Position numbers and translations under genes: made by a program. From Ruania alkalisoli (GTDB taxonomy: Bacteria; Actinomycetota; Actinomycetes; Actinomycetales; Beutenbergiaceae): a stretch of 64,000 nucleotides of DNA. This document shows, piece after piece, positions 7,655 to 17,145 of the stretch. Location of the stretch: positions 4,125,581 through 4,189,580 of the forward strand of contig NZ_CP063169.1 of assembly GCF_014960965.1 (NCBI RefSeq). The letters are read 5' to 3'. How positions within the stretch are numbered: position 1 is the first letter of the stretch; each line of letters opens with the position of its first letter. Under the pieces are notes generated by a model that was given only the letters and a program-made list of their open reading frames with translations, had not been told where the DNA came from and made no database searches.

Positions 7655-8668
7655 ATGTCACTGACTCTCGACGGCGTCCCTCCCCTCTCCCCCAGCCACC
7701 GCAGCCCGGAGCTGCTGTTGGCACCTACGTTCCAGGCCGGTGACTGGCGGAGCCTGGGCCTCGACTGCCCCTTCGTCTTCCGCTCGGGCGGCCGGCTCGG
7801 AATGACCATGGTCGGCTGGGACGGGGAGGGCTATCAGTCCGGCCTCGCTTGGTTCGACGGCGCGCGCTGGTCGGAGCCGGAGGTGATCCTGCGCCGCGAT
7901 CCGGCCTCGGCCCATCGCCGCCACAACACGGCACTGACCTCCCTCGCCCGCGACACCGAGCTGCTGGGGCAAGGGGAGCTGGTGCAGATCGACGGCTGGT
8001 ACTACGGCACCTACCACGCCTACCCGGACGCCGGCTACGAGGCCGGCTCGGCGCTGATCGGCTTCGTCCGTTCCCGCGACCTGCTGGCCTGGGAGGAGAC
8101 CGGGGGGTTCCTGCGCCCCGAGGAGGGCGGCACGTGGGAACGCGGCGGGCTGTACAAGTCCTGGCTGATGCGCCACGAGGACCGCTGGTGGCTGTTCTAC
8201 AACGCCAAGGACAAGGCCGAGGGGTCGTGGATCGAACAGACCGGTGCGGCTGTCTCCGATGATCTGCTCACCTGGGAGCGGGTCAGCGACAAGCCGCTCC
8301 TCCCGGTGGGGCCACCCGGGTCCTACGACGAACGCTTCGCCTCCGACCCGTGCGTGCTGCGGGCGCCGGACGGCACCTGGGTGATGTTCTACTTCGGACT
8401 CGCGCCGGGCCGCGGTGCCGTCGATCTCGTAGCCACCTCCCCCGACCTGCTGACGTGGACGCGTGATCCCGAGCCGTTGCTGGCACCGGGGCCAGCCGGC
8501 TCCGTGGACGACTGGCACGCGCACAAGCCGTCGGTGATCCGCGACGGCGACCGGTTGCTGCACGTCTACTGCGCCGTGCGCCGGTTGGCCGAGCCGGTCA
8601 CGGTCGGTGAGCGGACCGTGTCTGAACACCGAGGAATCGGCCTGGCCTGGTCGGAGGTGACCCGATGA
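7655..8668 (+). CDS. GH43-like five-bladed beta-propeller glycosidase
   Basis: The 337-residue protein has no signal peptide and shows repeated propeller-blade strands (for example DPCVLRAPDGTWVMFYFG and DLVATSPDLLTWTRDPEPLL), typical of the GH43/GH32/GH62/GH130 fold group. A conserved-looking Asp near the start (GLDCPFVF) and the Asp in the SDPCV blade are candidate active-site acids, but the exact family cannot be fixed by eye. GAAGGAA precedes ATG 7655. The next gene starts inside its stop codon (ATGA overlap), so the two proteins are likely made together. Context suggests intracellular trimming of an imported oligosaccharide, for example removal of arabinose, xylose or galactose units. 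Related proteins are often annotated only as family 43 glycosylhydrolase. Confidence 0.65.
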   Translation: MSLTLDGVPPLSPSHRSPELLLAPTFQAGDWRSLGLDCPFVFRSGGRLGMTMVGWDGEGYQSGLAWFDGARWSEPEVILRRDPASAHRRHNTALTSLARDTELLGQGELVQIDGWYYGTYHAYPDAGYEAGSALIGFVRSRDLLAWEETGGFLRPEEGGTWERGGLYKSWLMRHEDRWWLFYNAKDKAEGSWIEQTGAAVSDDLLTWERVSDKPLLPVGPPGSYDERFASDPCVLRAPDGTWVMFYFGLAPGRGAVDLVATSPDLLTWTRDPEPLLAPGPAGSVDDWHAHKPSVIRDGDRLLHVYCAVRRLAEPVTVGERTVSEHRGIGLAWSEVTR

Positions 8669-10782
8669 CCGGGGTGCCTTCCGCGCAGACGCGACCTACG
8701 CCGTCGGGAACCATCGACCGCGAAGCCGTGGTGCGCCGGCACAACGTGCGCTACGCCGGCCCGTGCCCAGAATCCCCGGTCTCGGTGGGCAATGGGGAGT
8801 TCGCCGTGACTGTGGATCACACGGGCTTGCAGAGCTTCGCCGACCGGTACGAGCGCAATGCCGCCCGTTCCCGCGGGGAGGCCGCGACGCCGCTGGGGAT
8901 GCAGGCGCAGTGGGGATTCCACTGGTTCCCCAATCCGCACGGCTACCGGCTCGAGGACACAATGGAGGCGCATCCGAGTCCGCGCGGCCCCGTGAAGTAC
9001 CCGAGTGCGTACGACTTCCGGGAGTCGCGGGAGGAGTCCGAGGCCGCCGGGCGTGGGGCGGGGTACTACTACTGGACGAACCCGCAGCGGCTGCATCTGG
9101 CGCAGGTGGGGCTGCTGCTGGACGGGCGAGTCCCCGAATGGGAGGAGATCCAGGAGGCCGGCCAGGAGCTCGACCTGTGGACCGGGGTGGTCACCAGCCG
9201 GTTCCTGATCGAGGAGCACGCGGTGCAGGTCCGGACGGCGGTCGATCCGGAGCGGGACTGCCTCGCCTTCGAGATGGAGTCGGCTGTGGAGGTGGCGGAG
9301 CGTCTCGCGGTACGGGTCGCCTTCCCCTACGTGGAGGAGAGCTTCGAGGCGCCGCCGGTGTGGGACCAGCCGGAGGCGCACAGGACCGACTATCGGGCCG
9401 ACGGCGGAGCGCACGTGTGGGAGCGCACCGTGGACGAGGCGCGCTATCAGGTGCGGGCGATGGGCACGTTCTCGGTGAACGGGAGTGGGCACGAGTGGGT
9501 GCTGCGGGCGACTGAGTCGGTGCTGCGCTGTGCAGTGGAGTTCGCCCCGGAGCTGCCCGCCGACCCGATCTCCGCCCCGGGCGAGGTTCTGGTGCGTTCG
9601 GCGCGCGGCTGGGAGGACTTCTGGCGCCGCGGCGCGGCCGTGGACCTGGGCGCCAGCACGGCCGATGGGGCGCATGAGCTGGAGCGCCGGATCGTGCTCT
9701 CGCAATACCAGACGCGGGTGCACTGTTCGGGGTCGACCCCGCCACAGGAGACAGGTCTGGTGTGCAACAGCTGGGGCGGCACGTTCCACCTGGAGATGCA
9801 CTGGTGGCATGCGGCGCACTTCCCGGCGTGGGGGCGCCCGGGGCTGCTCGAGCGGAGCCTGGCTTGGTATAAGTCCATCTTGCCGGTGGCGCGGGCGGGG
9901 GCAGTCGCGCAGGGTTTCAGGGGTGCGCGCTGGCCCAAGCATGTGGGGCCGGAGGGCATCGAGAGCCCGAACGACATCGGGCCGTTACTGGTGTGGCAGC
10001 AGCCGCATGTGATCAGCTACGCGGAGCTGCTGCGTACCGGCGCCGAGGACGAGGCGGCGGTGCGGCAGCGGTACCGGGTGCTGGTGGACGAGACGGCGGA
10101 GTTCCTGGCGTCATTCGCGTTGCTCGATGGGGATGCCTACCACCTGCCACCGCCGCTCATGCCGGCGCAGGAGGTGTATGGCGCTGCGCAGACGTGGGAC
10201 CCGCTGTTCGAGGTGGCGTACGTGCGCTGGGCGCTACTGACTGCGCTGGCCTGGCGCCGGGCGGACGGCCGGGCGGAGCCTGCGCTGTGGGCGCGGGTCG
10301 CTGATGGGCTGCGGCCGGTGGTCAGCGAGGACGGTCACTACGACGCCGTGCAGCGCCCGCCCCGCACCGTCTACACCGACCACCCGGCGATGCTCGGCGC
10401 CCTCGGCGTGGTTCCCGACACCGGGGCGATCGACCACGAGGCGATGCTGCGCACCCTGGAGCGGGCGTGCGCGCAGTGGAACTGGCGCAGCGCCTGGGGC
10501 TGGGACTTCCCGATGATCGCGATGTGCGCCACCCGGCTCGGGCGGGCAGACGTTGCGCTGTCGGCCTTGCTGCGCACCGAGGACAAGAACACGCATCTGC
10601 CGAACGGACACAACCGGCAGGTTCCGCACCGGATGCCGCTGTACCTGCCGGGAAACGGGGGGCTACTGATGGCCACGGCCCTCCTGTTCGGGGGGTGGGT
10701 GGACTCCGACGGCGTTCATCGCCGGGTGGAGCTGCCGGAAGGGTGGTCCGTGGTTGCCGAGGGTTTCCCGCCTCGGCCGTGA
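8665..10782 (+). CDS. Six-hairpin (alpha/alpha)6-type glycosidase-like protein
   Basis: The 705-residue cytoplasmic protein has an N-terminal beta-sandwich-like part (about 1-250) with the phrase SVGNGEFAVTVDHTGLQ, as in GH65/GH95-type enzymes, then a helical barrel of aromatic-rich segments (HLEMHWWHAAHFPAWGRP, about residues 370-390; GARWPKHVGPEG; WNWRSAWGWDFPMIAM). Likely catalytic acids lie in the barrel but are not assigned. The closing segment LPNGHNRQVP/LYLPGNGGLLMATALL matches the end of six-hairpin glycosidases. The start overlaps the GH43-like gene by four bases. It is probably a fucosidase-, rhamnosidase- or phosphorylase-like enzyme; the specificity is not deducible. A 282-bp gap follows, ending this locus. 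Confidence 0.6.
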   Translation: MTGVPSAQTRPTPSGTIDREAVVRRHNVRYAGPCPESPVSVGNGEFAVTVDHTGLQSFADRYERNAARSRGEAATPLGMQAQWGFHWFPNPHGYRLEDTMEAHPSPRGPVKYPSAYDFRESREESEAAGRGAGYYYWTNPQRLHLAQVGLLLDGRVPEWEEIQEAGQELDLWTGVVTSRFLIEEHAVQVRTAVDPERDCLAFEMESAVEVAERLAVRVAFPYVEESFEAPPVWDQPEAHRTDYRADGGAHVWERTVDEARYQVRAMGTFSVNGSGHEWVLRATESVLRCAVEFAPELPADPISAPGEVLVRSARGWEDFWRRGAAVDLGASTADGAHELERRIVLSQYQTRVHCSGSTPPQETGLVCNSWGGTFHLEMHWWHAAHFPAWGRPGLLERSLAWYKSILPVARAGAVAQGFRGARWPKHVGPEGIESPNDIGPLLVWQQPHVISYAELLRTGAEDEAAVRQRYRVLVDETAEFLASFALLDGDAYHLPPPLMPAQEVYGAAQTWDPLFEVAYVRWALLTALAWRRADGRAEPALWARVADGLRPVVSEDGHYDAVQRPPRTVYTDHPAMLGALGVVPDTGAIDHEAMLRTLERACAQWNWRSAWGWDFPMIAMCATRLGRADVALSALLRTEDKNTHLPNGHNRQVPHRMPLYLPGNGGLLMATALLFGGWVDSDGVHRRVELPEGWSVVAEGFPPRP

Positions 10783-11064
10783 CCTCCGCGGCGAAGACCT
10801 CTTTCGCCACGCAACCACACTCGACATCGAATGCGAACCAAGCCGACGAGCCTAACGACGCCGATCCAATGCATGCGGTGCGCGTGCGCCCACGGCGTCA
10901 ACCGAGAGGACTCGTAACCCTGCGCGTGCACCGCGCCGCATAGTGCGAGTCCAGAGAAGATGGCGCCCGCACGCCGCTACGCTGTCCTCAACTCGAGCCG
11001 TGATACGGCACCACTCGCATCGACCGTACTAGCAAGGATCCCGCAACAAGCGATAGGACCTCGA
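10783..11064. other. Intergenic stretch before the STAND gene, AT content rising toward its 3' end
   Basis: No convincing gene is seen here. The frame of the downstream gene is open back to ATG 10960, but the extra N-terminal residues have no family features and no ribosome site. Base composition falls from host-like G+C to the lower G+C of the downstream gene, which suggests a transfer boundary. No repeat or integrase site was recognised. Confidence 0.4.
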
Positions 11065-13605
11065 ATGAGTTTCAGCGCCACCAGATTAACGTGCTTTGCC
11101 CTGCTCGCCGCGATGGAGCAAGACATGCGTATGAATATTCAGGAGGCGCTCGGACACAATGATACCGGGGACCTCATTCCATCGGATCGACTCGACACAG
11201 CAAACGACCGTAGGGCACGTGACGGTCTGGGTCCGACAATCGAACTACCCGGAATCCTCGCATATTTGGACTTCGCGCAGAGCTACGAAATTCTGATTGC
11301 CAACCGCACAGACCTTGCAGAGAACCTCCGTTCGAGCCTGGAGGTCATCAAGCCTTCACTCTCGAGGACTGTCGCGATACGAAATAGGGTCGCCCACACC
11401 CGACCTATGGAAATAGACGATTCGTCCTTCCTCATAGACTTAGCAAATTCAATCTCGATTGCAGGTGGCAAGCACTGGGATGAGTTGGACTCAATACTAT
11501 CCCGCCTCCGCTCCGACCCCTCTTTCGTGCTCGGACTAACCGTTAGCCTTCCCTCCGACCCTGACAGAGTTCCGCAGCACAACCTGCCAGTTCCAGACTT
11601 TGACGAGACAGGCTTCTTCGGTCGCCAGGCCGAACTTCGTCGAATAACCAAGGCAATTCGCGGCGCATATCCGGTAGTATCCATACTCGGCGACGGTGGA
11701 ATCGGGAAGACATCGATTGCATTGAAAGCAGCGTACGAATTACTAGAAGACCCGAAGCGCCCCTTCGACGCTATAGTTTGGGTAACAGCAAAAGCAACAA
11801 TCCTCACACCGAATGAAATTCGCAGGATAAATGGAGCGATCGAAACCTCGCTCGGGTTGATTAGCTCGGCCGCATCTGAACTCTCTGGAATCGACGCACC
11901 ATCTGACCCCGTCGATGAAGTGTTGACCTACATGGAGAACTTCCGGATTCTCCTTCTACTAGACAACCTAGAGACTGTCCTAGATAAGCGTCTCCGCGAT
12001 TTTCTTCTTGAGTTGCCGGTGGGAAGCAAAGTTATCGTAACTAGTCGCATCGGTCTAGGCATCGAGAACCCTGTACAACTAGGCCCTCTACCCGATGATG
12101 AATCTGCGCGCCTACTTAGAGCGCTTGCCCGTGTTCGAAACGTTCAACATCTCACCAGTCTGACCCAAGAGACCGTGGACACTCTGGCTCGGCAGATGGC
12201 GGGACATCCGGCGTTTATCCGATGGTTTGTCGCCGGCGTGCAGGCTGGTCGTCGCCCCGAAGACCTTCTGGGCAACAATGAACTGCTCCTCGACTTCTGT
12301 ATGTCCAACGTTTACGACTACTTGAGCGTGGACGCGCAGGCGGCGTTGCGTTCGATGCAGGTCTTAGCAGGCGCGAAAAATCAAGCGGAACTAGCATTCT
12401 TGAACGACTACACCGCTTCGAAAACACAGGCTGTACTATTAGAGTTACTCACGACCAACTTCACGGCAATGTCCAGCCAGGGATCGGGCTACTCGCTAGA
12501 CACCGCTTATGAACTCTCGGAGTTCTCGAGACAATACTTGGATAAACACCATCCTGTGGAATCGGAGGAACGTTCGTGGCTTCTGCAGCGAGCTGAGGAA
12601 CTGCGTGATCTCGGAATGGAGATGGCGGCCGCGAATACCGCGTCTCCGTATTCAGCATCGAGCGTGCATGTGCGGGGGCCCGGCGACTTCCATGCGGCGG
12701 GAATTCTCCGCACCGCCATAGCGGTAGCACTTACCGACGTCGGTGGCGCTTTGGAACACTGCGTTGAAGCGCAACTATTGGCGCCCGGTTACTATGAGGC
12801 GTGGCGTGTCGAAGGATTTGTACGGTCGATCGATCGCGACCAAAGTGGAGCGCAGGCTGCCTTTGACCGAGCACTGGAGCTTGCCCCCGAATCGCCCGCA
12901 GCCCTGTTTCATGCTGGCACATTCTTGCTCGACAAGGTCGGCGATGCGGGCGCAGCCCTCACCCTTCTCCAACGGGCGGCGCGTAACGATCCTGAGAGTT
13001 CGGAGGTAGCGGGCCAAGTCGCCTGGGCTCACTTTTGCCTAGGCGACATGTCCTCGACTGTTGACGTCTGTACTCAAATCGCTACAAAGCAGGCAGCGAG
13101 TAGTTCGCACCGAAGAGTGGCGTTTGATCTCGCTCTACACGCAATCCAGTCAGCGGTTGGACACTTTCGCAGCAATGAGCAGTTCGACGATGCCGTCGAA
13201 CATGTTGAGCTGGGCGTCGAGCTCGCTGAGGCGGTAGACCCAAGATTAATCGAGGGCGTCGCTTCTGACCGCTTGATTGCGTTGCGGGACGTCTCGAATT
13301 CTCTTGCACACCAGAGCATCGACTACGCTGCTCGCCAAGCTGCACAGTTCACTACGAGAATTAGCGATATCCTTGCCTTCAACTTGACTAACAGTGTCCG
13401 GAGATCCGGCTCAGTTCACGCCTTGGTGCCTGACAAGGGTTTTGGATTCGTAACCTCTACGAAGACGAAGTACTTCTTCCATATATCCGATCTGCATGAT
13501 CGTTCTGACTGGGAATCCTTGACTGAAGGGGCTGAATGCGTATTCGAGCCGACTGAGACCGCGAAAGGCCCCAGGGCGAGGAGGCTGCGCCTAGTCAGCG
13601 TATGA
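11065..13605 (+). CDS. HEPN-STAND NTPase-TPR-cold-shock-domain protein (putative defence protein)
   Basis: The 846-residue protein (from ATG 11065) has four parts. Residues about 1-130 look like a Swt1-type HEPN domain with the RNase-like motif R106-N-R-V-A-H111. Residues about 185-480 form a STAND/NB-ARC NTPase: FGRQAEL entry motif, Walker A GDGGIGKTS (Lys215), Walker B ILLLLDN, sensor GSKVIVTSRIG, then a winged-helix-like arm. Residues about 555-690 read as tetratricopeptide helices (GAQAAFDRALELAPESPAALFHAGTF split over two repeats). Residues 781-846 are a cold-shock domain with RNP-1-like KGFGFV and RNP-2-like YFFHIS. STAND proteins with HEPN effectors are known abortive-infection sensors; here the cold-shock domain could be the nucleic-acid sensor (inference). 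The gene is clearly richer in A/T-ending codons (ata, tta, aat, cta) than its neighbours, a sign of transfer. It stands alone between metabolic genes. Confidence 0.8.
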   Translation: MSFSATRLTCFALLAAMEQDMRMNIQEALGHNDTGDLIPSDRLDTANDRRARDGLGPTIELPGILAYLDFAQSYEILIANRTDLAENLRSSLEVIKPSLSRTVAIRNRVAHTRPMEIDDSSFLIDLANSISIAGGKHWDELDSILSRLRSDPSFVLGLTVSLPSDPDRVPQHNLPVPDFDETGFFGRQAELRRITKAIRGAYPVVSILGDGGIGKTSIALKAAYELLEDPKRPFDAIVWVTAKATILTPNEIRRINGAIETSLGLISSAASELSGIDAPSDPVDEVLTYMENFRILLLLDNLETVLDKRLRDFLLELPVGSKVIVTSRIGLGIENPVQLGPLPDDESARLLRALARVRNVQHLTSLTQETVDTLARQMAGHPAFIRWFVAGVQAGRRPEDLLGNNELLLDFCMSNVYDYLSVDAQAALRSMQVLAGAKNQAELAFLNDYTASKTQAVLLELLTTNFTAMSSQGSGYSLDTAYELSEFSRQYLDKHHPVESEERSWLLQRAEELRDLGMEMAAANTASPYSASSVHVRGPGDFHAAGILRTAIAVALTDVGGALEHCVEAQLLAPGYYEAWRVEGFVRSIDRDQSGAQAAFDRALELAPESPAALFHAGTFLLDKVGDAGAALTLLQRAARNDPESSEVAGQVAWAHFCLGDMSSTVDVCTQIATKQAASSSHRRVAFDLALHAIQSAVGHFRSNEQFDDAVEHVELGVELAEAVDPRLIEGVASDRLIALRDVSNSLAHQSIDYAARQAAQFTTRISDILAFNLTNSVRRSGSVHALVPDKGFGFVTSTKTKYFFHISDLHDRSDWESLTEGAECVFEPTETAKGPRARRLRLVSV

Positions 13606-13781
13606 CTTTCGCATTCCCGCTGACCGCAGGGTCTCGCCGTTCCACACTCCTACGATTGCGCGCTTGCCAGCCCCCACCCCCCGCACGGCCGAATGTCCGG
13701 GCGTTGTGCGTTTGATGCACGTTTGATACAGAAGTGTCCTGGTAGCTCCCCCTATCGAAGAGCAGTGAGTTTTGCTCTGCG

Positions 13782-14753
13782 CTAGGCGATCAACTGTTCT
13801 GCCGTCCTCGCATCGGTGATCAACGTCGTCACCCATCCCCCCGCGAGCGCCCCCCGCACGGGGCCGATCTTCCGTTCACCACCAGCAATGCCGATCCTGC
13901 GCGGGATCCGTCGGAAATCATCGATCGGTATCGAGATGGTGCGCGCGTCCACATCCCCCTCGATCGCCGACCCGTCCAGGCGGAACACCCGGTGGCAGAT
14001 GTCGCCCACTGCCCCGTCGGCGAGCAGCGTCTCCCGATCCGAGGCATCGAAGGCATTCCCGCTCTCGGCCAGCAGGTCGCTCGGGTCGATGCTGCCGATC
14101 CCCACCACCGCAGCCGTCAGCTCGCGCCAGCGTTCCATCACCGCCTGCAGACCGGGCTCGCGCAGCAGACTGTCACGGGTACCCCGATCGGCCACCACCC
14201 CCGGCGCCTGCACGTAGTACGCCTGACCGCCGAGCATCCGCGCCAGCTCGCTCGCGAGCCGCTGCGCCTGCGTCTGCACCTCCGGCACCCCGATTCCGCC
14301 CAGCAGCTGCACCACTTCGCTCACGGTCGGGTTCACGGCCGGGCGCATCCGATCCACGGTCGCCAGCAGCGTCTGGCTCCACGAGGCGATGCCCACGCGA
14401 TCGGCCCCGGTGAACGCCGTCTCCAGGTACGCGGCCCCCGCTCCCCCGATGGCCGCGATCTGCTCGGCCTCGTCGGCGTCGTCCTCGACATCCACGATCA
14501 CCGCCTCCGCCAAGCCGAACGCGCGCTCCAGCTCGCCCTCGAGCTCGGTGTGCAGCCCCGGCGCGATACTGACCGTCGTGCGCACCACCCCGAGCTGTGC
14601 GGCGCGCTTGAGCAGCCGTGAGACCTTCGCCTGCGAGAGCCCGAGGGCGTCGGCGATCTGCGCCTGCCGCACCCCTTGCTCGTGGTACATCACCGCCACC
14701 TTCGTCAGCTGCCGTAGCTGCACGTCGATCGGCGGACCGTATCGTGAGGGCAT
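13782..14753 (-). CDS. SorC-family sugar-binding transcriptional regulator
   Basis: The 323-residue protein has an N-terminal helix-turn-helix (VRQAQIADALGLSQAKVSRLLKRA, split here as two halves of one motif) and a C-terminal NagB/DeoR-like sugar-phosphate-binding domain (TVSEVVQLLGGIG; GIGSIDPSDLLAESG; VGDICHRVFRLDG; GGERKIGPVRGAL), the order found in SorC/DeoR-type regulators. The start is put at 14753 because AAGGAG lies directly upstream; an ATG 36 bp earlier has no such site. The gene is divergent from a dehydrogenase gene across 112 bp that hold a palindrome. It probably senses a phosphorylated sugar and controls itself and the divergent operon. Confidence 0.88.
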   Translation of the reverse strand: MPSRYGPPIDVQLRQLTKVAVMYHEQGVRQAQIADALGLSQAKVSRLLKRAAQLGVVRTTVSIAPGLHTELEGELERAFGLAEAVIVDVEDDADEAEQIAAIGGAGAAYLETAFTGADRVGIASWSQTLLATVDRMRPAVNPTVSEVVQLLGGIGVPEVQTQAQRLASELARMLGGQAYYVQAPGVVADRGTRDSLLREPGLQAVMERWRELTAAVVGIGSIDPSDLLAESGNAFDASDRETLLADGAVGDICHRVFRLDGSAIEGDVDARTISIPIDDFRRIPRRIGIAGGERKIGPVRGALAGGWVTTLITDARTAEQLIA

Positions 14754-14783
14754 CACTGCTCCTTCCCCAAGAAGTGCAAGCAT

Positions 14784-14830
14784 ATTCACAGATGAATGAA
14801 TTGCGCCAGTGGGTGCCGCGCGGCTAGGCT
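14784..14830 (+). promoter_or_regulatory. Divergent control region: palindrome plus candidate promoter
   Basis: ATTCA-N4-TGAAT (14784-14797) is a perfect short palindrome and a candidate SorC operator. TTGCGC (14801-14806) and TAGGCT (14825-14830), spaced by 18 bp, form a possible promoter for the plus-strand dehydrogenase, whose ATG follows 36 bp later behind GAAGGAG. Confidence 0.4.
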
Positions 14831-14865
14831 CGAACCCGCTATCTCACCACGAAGGAGTGTCGACG

Positions 14866-15696
14866 ATGATCGTCGGAGTCACCGGCAGCTCGGGCAAGCT
14901 CGGCAGCGCCACCATGACCCACCTGCGCGAGCACGGACACCACGTCATCGGCTTCGACCGGCACGGCTCTGTCGGCTTCGACTTCACCCAGGTCGACCTC
15001 GGCGATTACGGCCAGATCCTCGACGCCCTGCTCGGCGTCACCGCACGCCACGGCGGGCTCGACGCACTCGTCCACCTCGCCGCCATCCCGGTCAACGGCA
15101 TCGTGCCCGACGCCGCCACCTTCGACGCCAACGTCAGCGCCACCTTCCACACCCTCTTCGCCGCGCACCGCGCCGGCATCCGCAACGTCGTCTTCGCCTC
15201 CAGCATCACCGCCATGGGATTCCCCTTCGAGCAGGCCCCACCGTCCCTCCCAGTGGACGAGACCTTCACCCGCGCGCACAACACCTACGGGCTCGGCAAG
15301 GTGGCCGAAGAAGCGATCGCCGCCCAGCTCACCGGCTGGACCGACGGCGCCTCACTCACCGCCCTGCGCTTCACCAACGTGGTCGCACCCGATGAGTACG
15401 CCACCTTCGAACGCGCCGGCGACCCCGCCTACCGGCGCGACCTGCTCGGCTCCTGGATCGACTCCCGCGACGGCGCCCTCGCCGTCCGCCTCGCCCTCGA
15501 AGCGCCCGCCCCGGGCTTCCGCGTCTACAACGTCGCCCACCCTGAATCCGGCAACAGCAGCCCCTCGGCCGAGGTGGCCGAGCGCTGGTTCCCCGGCACC
15601 CCCGTGGCCGGCGACCTCGGCGAGCACGAGTCCTTGATGTCCACCCGCAAGATCCAGCGCGAGCTCGGCTTCGCCGCCCAGCACAACTGGCGCTGA
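14866..15696 (+). CDS. NAD(P)-dependent epimerase/dehydratase-family oxidoreductase (extended SDR)
   Basis: The 276-residue cytoplasmic protein starts with a Rossmann fingerprint (GVTGSSGKLG, residues 4-13) and continues with the extended-SDR signatures HLAAIPVNG, FASSITAMG and the catalytic YGLGK (Tyr-x3-Lys). Start chosen at ATG 14866 for its GAAGGAG site. Members act on nucleotide sugars or on free aldose/uronate (uronate dehydrogenase is a near relative), and the small size favours a free sugar or uronate. It is divergent from a SorC regulator and followed after 28 bp by a LacI regulator, which suggests a small controlled catabolic step. Substrate unassigned. Confidence 0.8.
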   Translation: MIVGVTGSSGKLGSATMTHLREHGHHVIGFDRHGSVGFDFTQVDLGDYGQILDALLGVTARHGGLDALVHLAAIPVNGIVPDAATFDANVSATFHTLFAAHRAGIRNVVFASSITAMGFPFEQAPPSLPVDETFTRAHNTYGLGKVAEEAIAAQLTGWTDGASLTALRFTNVVAPDEYATFERAGDPAYRRDLLGSWIDSRDGALAVRLALEAPAPGFRVYNVAHPESGNSSPSAEVAERWFPGTPVAGDLGEHESLMSTRKIQRELGFAAQHNWR

Positions 15697-15724
15697 GTAC
15701 GCTCGGGCGGATGGAGAACAGGGC

Positions 15725-16729
15725 GTGAGCAGGGTCGGCATCCGCGATGTCGCCGCCCACGCCGGTGTCGGGATCGGGACAGTCTCGAACTACCTCAACC
15801 ACCCCGAACGCGTCTCCCCCGAGACCGCGGGCCGCATCGCCGCCGCCATCGACACCCTCGGTTTCGTGCCCAGCCAGGCCGGCCGGCAACTGCGTTCGGG
15901 CACCAGCCGCGTGATCGGCTACCTCGCCCCCGACATCTCCAACCCGTACTTCACCGAGATCGCCGAGAGCGTCGAACAGGGCGCCTCCACGCGCAACATC
16001 TCCGTGTTCTTCGCCGACTCCCACCGCAGCCGCTCCCGGGAGGACGCCTACCTCTCCGTCTTCGAAGAGCACCGCGTGCTCGGCCTGCTCGTGTCCTCAC
16101 ACGAGCCGATCGAAGACCGGTTGGCACAGGTGCGCAGGCGAGGGACGCCGTCGGTTCTCGTGGGCCAGCAGGCCCACCACCCGGAGCAGCCCTCGATTTC
16201 CGTGGACGACGTTTCCGGCGGCCGGCAGGCGGCCGCCCACCTGATCGATATCGGACGGCGGAGCCTCGCCTTCGTCGGTGGCCCCCTGACCATCGCCCAG
16301 GTCGCCGCCCGCCTCACCGGGGCGAGCGCCGCCGTCAACGGGAGCGGAGCCGGCCTGGAAATCATCGACACCGCCGACCGCACCGTCCACAGCGGGCAGG
16401 AGGTGGGCCGTGCGCTCCTGGAACGCACCCCCGAGCGGCGACCGGACGCCGTCCTGGCCGTGAACGACCTCGTCGCACTGGGTCTGATGCAGGCGCTGGT
16501 GCACGGCGGCGTGCGGGTGCCCGAGGACGTCGCGATCGTCGGCTACGACGACAACGAGTTCGCCGAGGCCTCCCTCATCCCGCTCACCAGCGTGCGCAGC
16601 CGGCACGAGGAGTTCGGGCCGACCATGATCGACCTGCTGTTCGAGGCAATCGCTGGGGAGTTCTCCGGGCAGGTGCACCGCACGTTCGAGCCGGCGCTGG
16701 TGGTGCGGGCGAGCACGAGTGGAGGCTGA
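15725..16729 (+). CDS. LacI-family transcriptional regulator
   Basis: The 334-residue protein starts at a GTG preceded by GGAGAACAGG. Residues 5-25 are the LacI helix-turn-helix (IRDVAAHAGVGIGTVSNYLN) with hinge helix, followed by a periplasmic-binding-protein-like effector domain (VIGYLAPDISNPYFTEIA; AILGYDDNEF-type motif as VAIVGYDDNEFAEASLIPL). It follows the dehydrogenase by 28 bp and is probably co-transcribed with it. The effector sugar is unknown. Confidence 0.92.
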   Translation: MSRVGIRDVAAHAGVGIGTVSNYLNHPERVSPETAGRIAAAIDTLGFVPSQAGRQLRSGTSRVIGYLAPDISNPYFTEIAESVEQGASTRNISVFFADSHRSRSREDAYLSVFEEHRVLGLLVSSHEPIEDRLAQVRRRGTPSVLVGQQAHHPEQPSISVDDVSGGRQAAAHLIDIGRRSLAFVGGPLTIAQVAARLTGASAAVNGSGAGLEIIDTADRTVHSGQEVGRALLERTPERRPDAVLAVNDLVALGLMQALVHGGVRVPEDVAIVGYDDNEFAEASLIPLTSVRSRHEEFGPTMIDLLFEAIAGEFSGQVHRTFEPALVVRASTSGG

Positions 16730-16768
16730 CGCTCCTGAGGGCCCTCGAGGGAAGTGGAGCCCAGCGCT

Positions 16769-16809
16769 GATAACATTATCAACGCCGAACCATCGCTGAG
16801 AATGTTATC
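16769..16809 (+). promoter_or_regulatory. Two operator-like sites, GATAA-N2-TTATC and a near copy
   Basis: GATAACATTATC (16769-16780) is a palindrome with a two-base centre, followed by AACG. A second site, GAGAATGTTATC (16798-16809), also followed by AACG, lies 29 bp downstream in the same orientation. They sit upstream of a decayed ATPase reading frame and may be the relic operator of the lost toxin-antitoxin-like locus. Confidence 0.35.
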
Positions 16810-16839
16810 AACGTGCGCACCGCAGCCAACTGGTACGCC

Positions 16840-17145
16840 AGCGCGGTCAACACGATCACTGAAGATCAAGTACTCACCGGCTGGGAAGCGGCCGTTCCAG
16901 AGGCGGTCGCTCACGTCGAGCGGATCCTCGAAAGGCTCCCCGCCCGCGAGCGTGCGTTCGTCGGAGCCATGGCCGCCTTACCCAAACCGGAGCGTACGCT
17001 CACGTGCATCGCTCGGGAGATGGGACTCGCAAAGCACACCGACGCCGGCCCCACGTCACAGCGCCTCGACGCCGTCCGCAGGATCATCACCCGTGGCAAG
17101 CCGTACACATTTCGCCCGCCGGGCCGTCGAGGCGTACGTCGTCGC
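16840..17145 (+). pseudogene. C-terminal fragment of a bacterial AAA-type ATPase
   Basis: The frame encodes a winged-helix tail like that of chromosomally encoded bacterial AAA ATPases: RILERLPARERAFVGAMAAL, then TLTCIAREMG, DAGPTSQRLD, and ITRGKPYTF. Near 17110 the expected continuation (RRAVEAYV) lies in another frame, so there is one small indel. Everything N-terminal, including the Walker motifs, is missing, and the 3' end runs antisense into the decayed nucleotidyltransferase gene. This is a gene remnant and is unlikely to make a working product. Confidence 0.5.

Follow-up and report, generated by a model that had tools for sequence, protein, structure and literature searches.

A gene in the 64,000-nucleotide stretch of Ruania alkalisoli DNA analyzed here (contig NZ_CP063169.1, positions 4,125,581 to 4,189,580; hereafter the window) encodes a protein in which a HEPN-type N-terminus, a STAND NTPase, TPR-like repeats and a cold-shock domain (CSD) follow one another in a single chain. 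The open reading frame (ORF) covers positions 11065..13605 of the + strand and specifies 846 residues. Its GC content is about 53–60%, against about 70% in the flanks, and it is the sole match at E up to 0.001 within its own 4.45 Mb single-contig genome. The gene stands alone as a low-GC insert and belongs to a HEPN-STAND-TPR-CSD family that is genuine, conserved, and mobile. We think that the protein is probably an abortive-infection receptor of the STAND type that works as a single-gene system.

We compared 31 sequences, the window protein and 30 relatives. A search of genome contigs found 23 loci, which belong to Actinomycetota, three Gammaproteobacteria, and one metagenome-assembled genome (MAG) each of Acidobacteria, Anaerolinea (Chloroflexota), and Pleomorphochaeta (Spirochaetota), as well as to a partial Heimdallarchaeota MAG contig. 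Further relatives were found on Rhizobium and Planococcus plasmids, on viral contigs, and in other genomes; no relative was matched among phage records. The 31-row tree was built without L023 (at a contig end) and L054 (an apparent copy of L002). The distribution is patchy: at E up to 1e-40 the gene was present in 4/394 genomes of the class, 2/396 genomes of the order (the own genome counted in both), and 0/7 congeners. A wider tally (127/396) was not used: among the matches listed, only that in the own genome ran full length, and the others were partial ATPase, TPR, or CSD matches. Low GC is general, the core gene lying below its own locus in all 23 loci examined. Profiles of the N-terminus, ATPase, middle region, and TPRs each matched all eight relatives tested (L055–L062).

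The N-terminal HEPN-type domain spans residues 1–160 (11065..11544; this and the other features of the protein are on the + strand) and carries the predicted RNase motif RX4H as R106-N-R-V-A-H111 (11380..11397). R106 is kept in 31/31 sequences, H111 and N107 in 30/31 each, and R113 and P114 are invariant across the 31. The HEPN_Swt1 profile (PF18731) matched 27 of the 31 N-termini at E up to 1, with a best value of 4.5e-6, and the Abi_2 profile matched 11 at the same threshold; the window protein alone scored below the HEPN_Swt1 cutoff (E about 0.15–0.18). The structural model of the domain has a pLDDT of 92.9, and the top rows of its VIA structural list are mostly HEPN proteins (AbiF, Csm6', HepT) with moderate scores. 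Foldseek returned no significant row for the HEPN model against the PDB, and a PDB search with the HEPN profile gave four rows, none HEPN by name. By profile, RX4-6H motif, and modeled fold, the N-terminus looks like a Swt1-like HEPN domain with predicted RNase activity. An earlier note on this DNA, made from its letters alone, had set a HEPN-like N-terminus beforehand as a test, and both the Swt1-like profile and the HEPN structures leading the VIA list came out in its favor. In the HEPN alignment (A2), L014, a near-copy of L013, was omitted and L023 included instead. The divergent relative L056 (1453-1911) has the motif RNRVMK, in which K replaces the HEPN histidine; it is perhaps catalytically dead.

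The top VIA row was PbAbiF bound to non-coding RNA (ncRNA). This match would suit an AbiF-like, RNA-neutralized toxin, in which an ncRNA held by the HEPN domain or the CSD silences the protein and is lost on infection. There is a precedent in C. difficile, where the DNA upstream of the AbiF gene encodes an ncRNA that neutralizes the protein (PMC12373285; this and the other papers are cited from passages of their text). However, an alignment of four loci showed poorly conserved upstream DNA and no conserved upstream RNA, and no repeat array was seen in the upstream gap. The window likewise gave no Rfam family at gathering score, and neither a tRNA nor attachment-like repeats were seen. An RNA-neutralized toxin is thus highly improbable.

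The NB-ARC/STAND NTPase occupies residues of about 180–400 (11602..12264). Pfam NB-ARC matched residues 201–386 at 6.2e-9 (35.9 bits, cutoff 23.5), and AAA_16 matched at 1.1e-7. The Walker A motif GDGGIGKTS (209–217, 11689..11715) has K215 in 31/31 sequences, and the Walker B motif LLLLDNLE (296–303, 11950..11973) has D300 in 31/31. In the sensor-like T-S-R (326–328, 12040..12048), T326 and the sensor arginine R328 are kept in 31/31 and S327 in 29/31. A winged-helix-like middle region at about 440–500 (12382..12564) is suggested by helices and a beta hairpin in the model. TPR-like helical repeats follow at 536–777 (12670..13395), as seen in the model and in Pfam TPR models that score below their cutoffs; the structure search with the full-length model probed only these repeats. 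Over 25 rows, mean identity was 0.54 for the NTPase, 0.40 for the middle region, 0.35 for the HEPN domain, 0.34 for the CSD, and 0.28 for the TPRs, so that the TPR region is the most variable, ahead of the CSD.

The C-terminal CSD (779–845, 13399..13599) was matched by Pfam at residues 781–841 with E 9.9e-8 (32.2 bits, cutoff 27), and its model is mostly beta strands. It contains an RNP1-like KGFGFV (791–796, 13435..13452) and an RNP2-like YFFHI (803–807, 13471..13485). A CSD is carried by 26/31 sequences, from Actinomycetota, Acidobacteriota, Chloroflexota, Spirochaetota, Bacillota, and Rhizobium; [F/Y][G/A]F is found in 26/26 of these domains and F[F/V]H in 22/26. When ten C-terminal pieces were submitted to Pfam, a CSD was matched in eight (L017, L019, L021, L056, L059, L060, L061, and L062; E values between 1.5e-16 and 0.067). 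Of these, L017, L019, and L062 exceeded the cutoff; L057 and L018 had no CSD match. The five sequences without a CSD form a supported clade (the Gammaproteobacteria L018, L020, and L024 with the viral contig L058) plus L057, whose genome belongs to the same order as the window; the tree therefore needs two changes. These five still keep the HEPN and ATPase motifs. We considered whether their CSD had moved to an adjacent gene: none was found at E up to 1 in the six frames of the five loci (for L057, a locus of only 4.8 kb). The possibility of a chance fusion is ruled out by the count of 26/31, and homologues without the domain, at 5/31, are not the rule. At the level of anatomy, the HEPN, STAND, TPR-like, and cold-shock reading of the earlier note was borne out by Pfam, the HEPN_Swt1 profile, VIA, and the C-terminal Pfam matches. 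The Anaerolinea MAG relative L019 (7544-10309) ends in two tandem CSDs. In the Cryobacterium relative L015 (9634-12138) a stop codon cuts the CSD short; this sequence was taken up to its early stop, counted as CSD-bearing, and excluded from the identity means.

The STAND layout of the protein has HEPN in the effector place and the TPRs and CSD in the sensor place. Under the abortive-infection reading, we infer the following cycle. At rest, the ATPase would keep the protein inactive. The TPR arm would sense a sign of infection, a phage protein being the likeliest; we assign the sensor to the TPRs because they change fastest. ATP-driven assembly would then pair the N-terminal HEPN domains, and an RNase site around R106/H111 would cleave RNA of the cell or the virus and so halt growth. 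The CSD would bind single-stranded RNA with little sequence preference and anchor the assembled enzyme on RNA or translating mRNA, acting as an anchor and not as the chooser of the target. We propose this RNA grip because the generic cold-shock protein surface is kept and because the domain can be absent.

The CSD could instead be the trigger, recognizing single-stranded RNA or DNA made during infection, with the TPRs as no more than a relay to the ATPase and HEPN domains. Its presence in most members over many phyla, the retention of RNP1 and largely of F[F/V]H, and the tandem CSD stretches of L019 argue for such a role, as does the best NCBIfam match of the domain, a retron Se72 effector (5e-7, below cutoff). 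Yet a whole clade and L057 manage without the CSD, none lies in the six frames of their loci, and their HEPN and ATPase motifs are kept. The TPRs are also more variable than the CSD, and a generic cold-shock surface offers little discrimination between self and non-self. On balance, we find a CSD trigger possible but doubtful. Recognition by the CSD, as the earlier note had it, is thus conceivable but not the best supported assignment, the most variable part being the TPRs. We also think it unlikely that the protein is a bacterial NLR-like receptor in which the conserved cold-shock tip detects single-stranded nucleic acid made during infection and HEPN RNA cleavage is the response; if true, the STAND switch would read RNA or DNA itself and not a phage protein.

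The window gene lies in a variable slot (10783-13781). Its right edge is a sugar-binding regulator (13782..14789, − strand; Sugar-bind 6.5e-56) of the SorC type, and an epimerase-like protein and a LacI-type regulator also lie on this side; the left neighbor is a 705-residue protein without a Pfam match. The chromosomal, solitary position beside sugar-type regulator genes would fit a MalT-like STAND regulator whose CSD delivers an RNA-binding output, as antiterminator or RNA chaperone, while the HEPN domain does no more than pair. The classic role of CSDs as RNA chaperones also counts for this idea. However, the presence of R106 in 31/31 and H111 in 30/31 sequences speaks against it. The patchy, low-GC distribution over plasmids and viral contigs does not suit a regulator either, and loss of the CSD from 5/31 members would be odd for an output domain. 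We consider a regulator improbable.

Both flanks of the slot were found on one contig in the congeners G784, G832, and G909, whereas G771 has only the right flank at high identity. The distance between the flanks is 3.0 kb in the window versus 14.2 kb (G784), 18.7 kb (G832), and 32.6 kb (G909). Ten chosen slot ORFs were scanned with PADLOC; G771 (L096) supplied three of them, G909 (L094 and L095) five, and G784 (L093) and G832 (L091) a single one each. Half of them matched at E up to 0.001: G771 has GajA and GajB (Gabija), and G909 has PDC-M68A, PDC-M68B, and an HNH-type gene. The remaining five had no match. The Gabija pair (L096, 10875-14212) and the PDC-M68 pair, an ABC-3C candidate (L095, 13645-16681), both lie close to the same right flank, with one uncharacterized ORF between Gabija and the sugar-binding regulator in G771. 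The variable slot beside the SorC-type regulator is possibly a genus-level defense hotspot. Elsewhere in the G909 slot (L094, 15571-18085), a resolvase gene accompanies the HNH-type, restriction-like gene.

Mobile settings recur among the relatives. L061, on a conjugative plasmid of Rhizobium sp. BG4, lies near HsdR, HsdS, and HsdM genes (type I restriction-modification); at 7995-17121 this relative adjoins an SprT-like protease and the restriction-modification operon. Two relatives are on phage-like contigs: L058 (3622-12325, without CSD) and L059 (1639-10255, with CSD). One of the 16 ORFs near the gene on these contigs, from L058, matches integrase families. In the L058 record, a primase match also lies about 2.5 kb from the gene, with a repressor-type match at a long distance; in the L059 record, CI-type and CII-type regulator matches lie 4–6 kb from the gene. 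The three models behind these primase and regulator matches also match 5, 14, and 2 of 14 ordinary control genomes.

We surveyed 232 neighboring ORFs, called by a simple script with one ORF of >1300 aa dropped. For the control, 140 of the 216 ORFs called in 16 stretches were picked evenly, and the first 116 of these, which come from 14 stretches, were used. At E up to 1e-20, PADLOC gave 0 families in the first 116 neighbors and 10, each with one protein, in the second 116; the 116 control ORFs gave 88 families, many of them Dnd and Pbe models. The high control count probably reflects a control stretch crossing a Dnd/Pbe island. One or more of the control stretches L063–L076 (alignment A6) carry Dnd/Pbe/Ssp-type defense genes. 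Known defense neighbors are thus not enriched over the control (232 vs 116 ORFs). The family therefore travels mostly as solitary cargo, and siting in defense islands is unsupported. An antiviral role, which the earlier note had put forward, is supported by anatomy and context only: low GC, patchy spread, plasmids, phage-like contigs, and a slot that carries Gabija in a congener. That proposal therefore stands in part, the neighbor survey having lent it nothing. Against PADLOC, the window protein itself matched four families at E up to 1, none of them Avs, and the PADLOC TPR plus cold-shock model PDLC01170 matched 4/23 members at E up to 0.01.

How does the protein compare with known systems? 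AbiF resembles it in N-terminal structure and in the Abi_2 HEPN profile. To our knowledge, AbiF has neither a STAND ATPase nor a repeat sensor. Passages on AbiF describe it as working with an ncRNA antitoxin, unlike our reading of the window protein (PMC12373285). Receptors of the STAND class carry their effector at the N-terminus, the ATPase in the center, and the sensor at the C-terminus (PMC12931631), and Avs/AVAST and TIR-STAND-TPR receptors likewise unite an effector and an ATPase with a repeat sensor in a single chain (PMC12931631, PMC9122126). The effectors named there are nuclease, Sir2, or TIR domains versus HEPN here, and the cited passages name no CSD. Cold-shock domains are mentioned in other conflict systems (PMC7159879, PMC11090510). 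The retron Se72 cold-shock-like accessory protein, whose NCBIfam model came closest to our CSD with a score below cutoff, is encoded by an ORF of its own in a retron cassette that also includes a reverse transcriptase (PMC6868368). Type I CoCoNuT CnuB has a CSD-like OB-fold on a defense NTPase with predicted RNA targeting, but the NTPase is a McrB-like GTPase with a McrC-type partner and the CSD is at the N-terminus (PMC11090510). The HEPN-STAND-TPR-CSD fusion is not named in the passages cited from PMC12839542, PMC10853773, PMC8195603, and PMC11811056.

The closest counterparts were already listed in 2013, so the architecture is not, as the earlier note believed, an unnamed one. Table 1 of Anantharaman et al. 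(PMC3710099) gives Swt1-like HEPN fused to a STAND-ATPase, TPR, and S1 (Npun_F6454, MED222_16016, and Desac_1927), and a passage of the text mentions a HEPN-STAND protein of B. cereus with a C-terminal cold-shock-like OB-fold (gi 229028907). These fusions have the same four kinds of part, with S1 in the table and cold-shock-like in the text; the match is by architecture only. The passages contain neither a conservation count nor a test of the fusion, and searches aimed at the architecture showed no experiment on it in the open-licence PubMed Central literature (subscription papers are mostly, and bioRxiv wholly, outside it). The window gene adds a member to this listing. Relative to the brief entry of 2013, the family is now defined by fixed residues, by a CSD counted in 26/31 sequences, and by a defense-slot context, and its CSD-less relatives are natural controls; together, these make a nucleic-acid-binding STAND tip directly testable by domain swaps.
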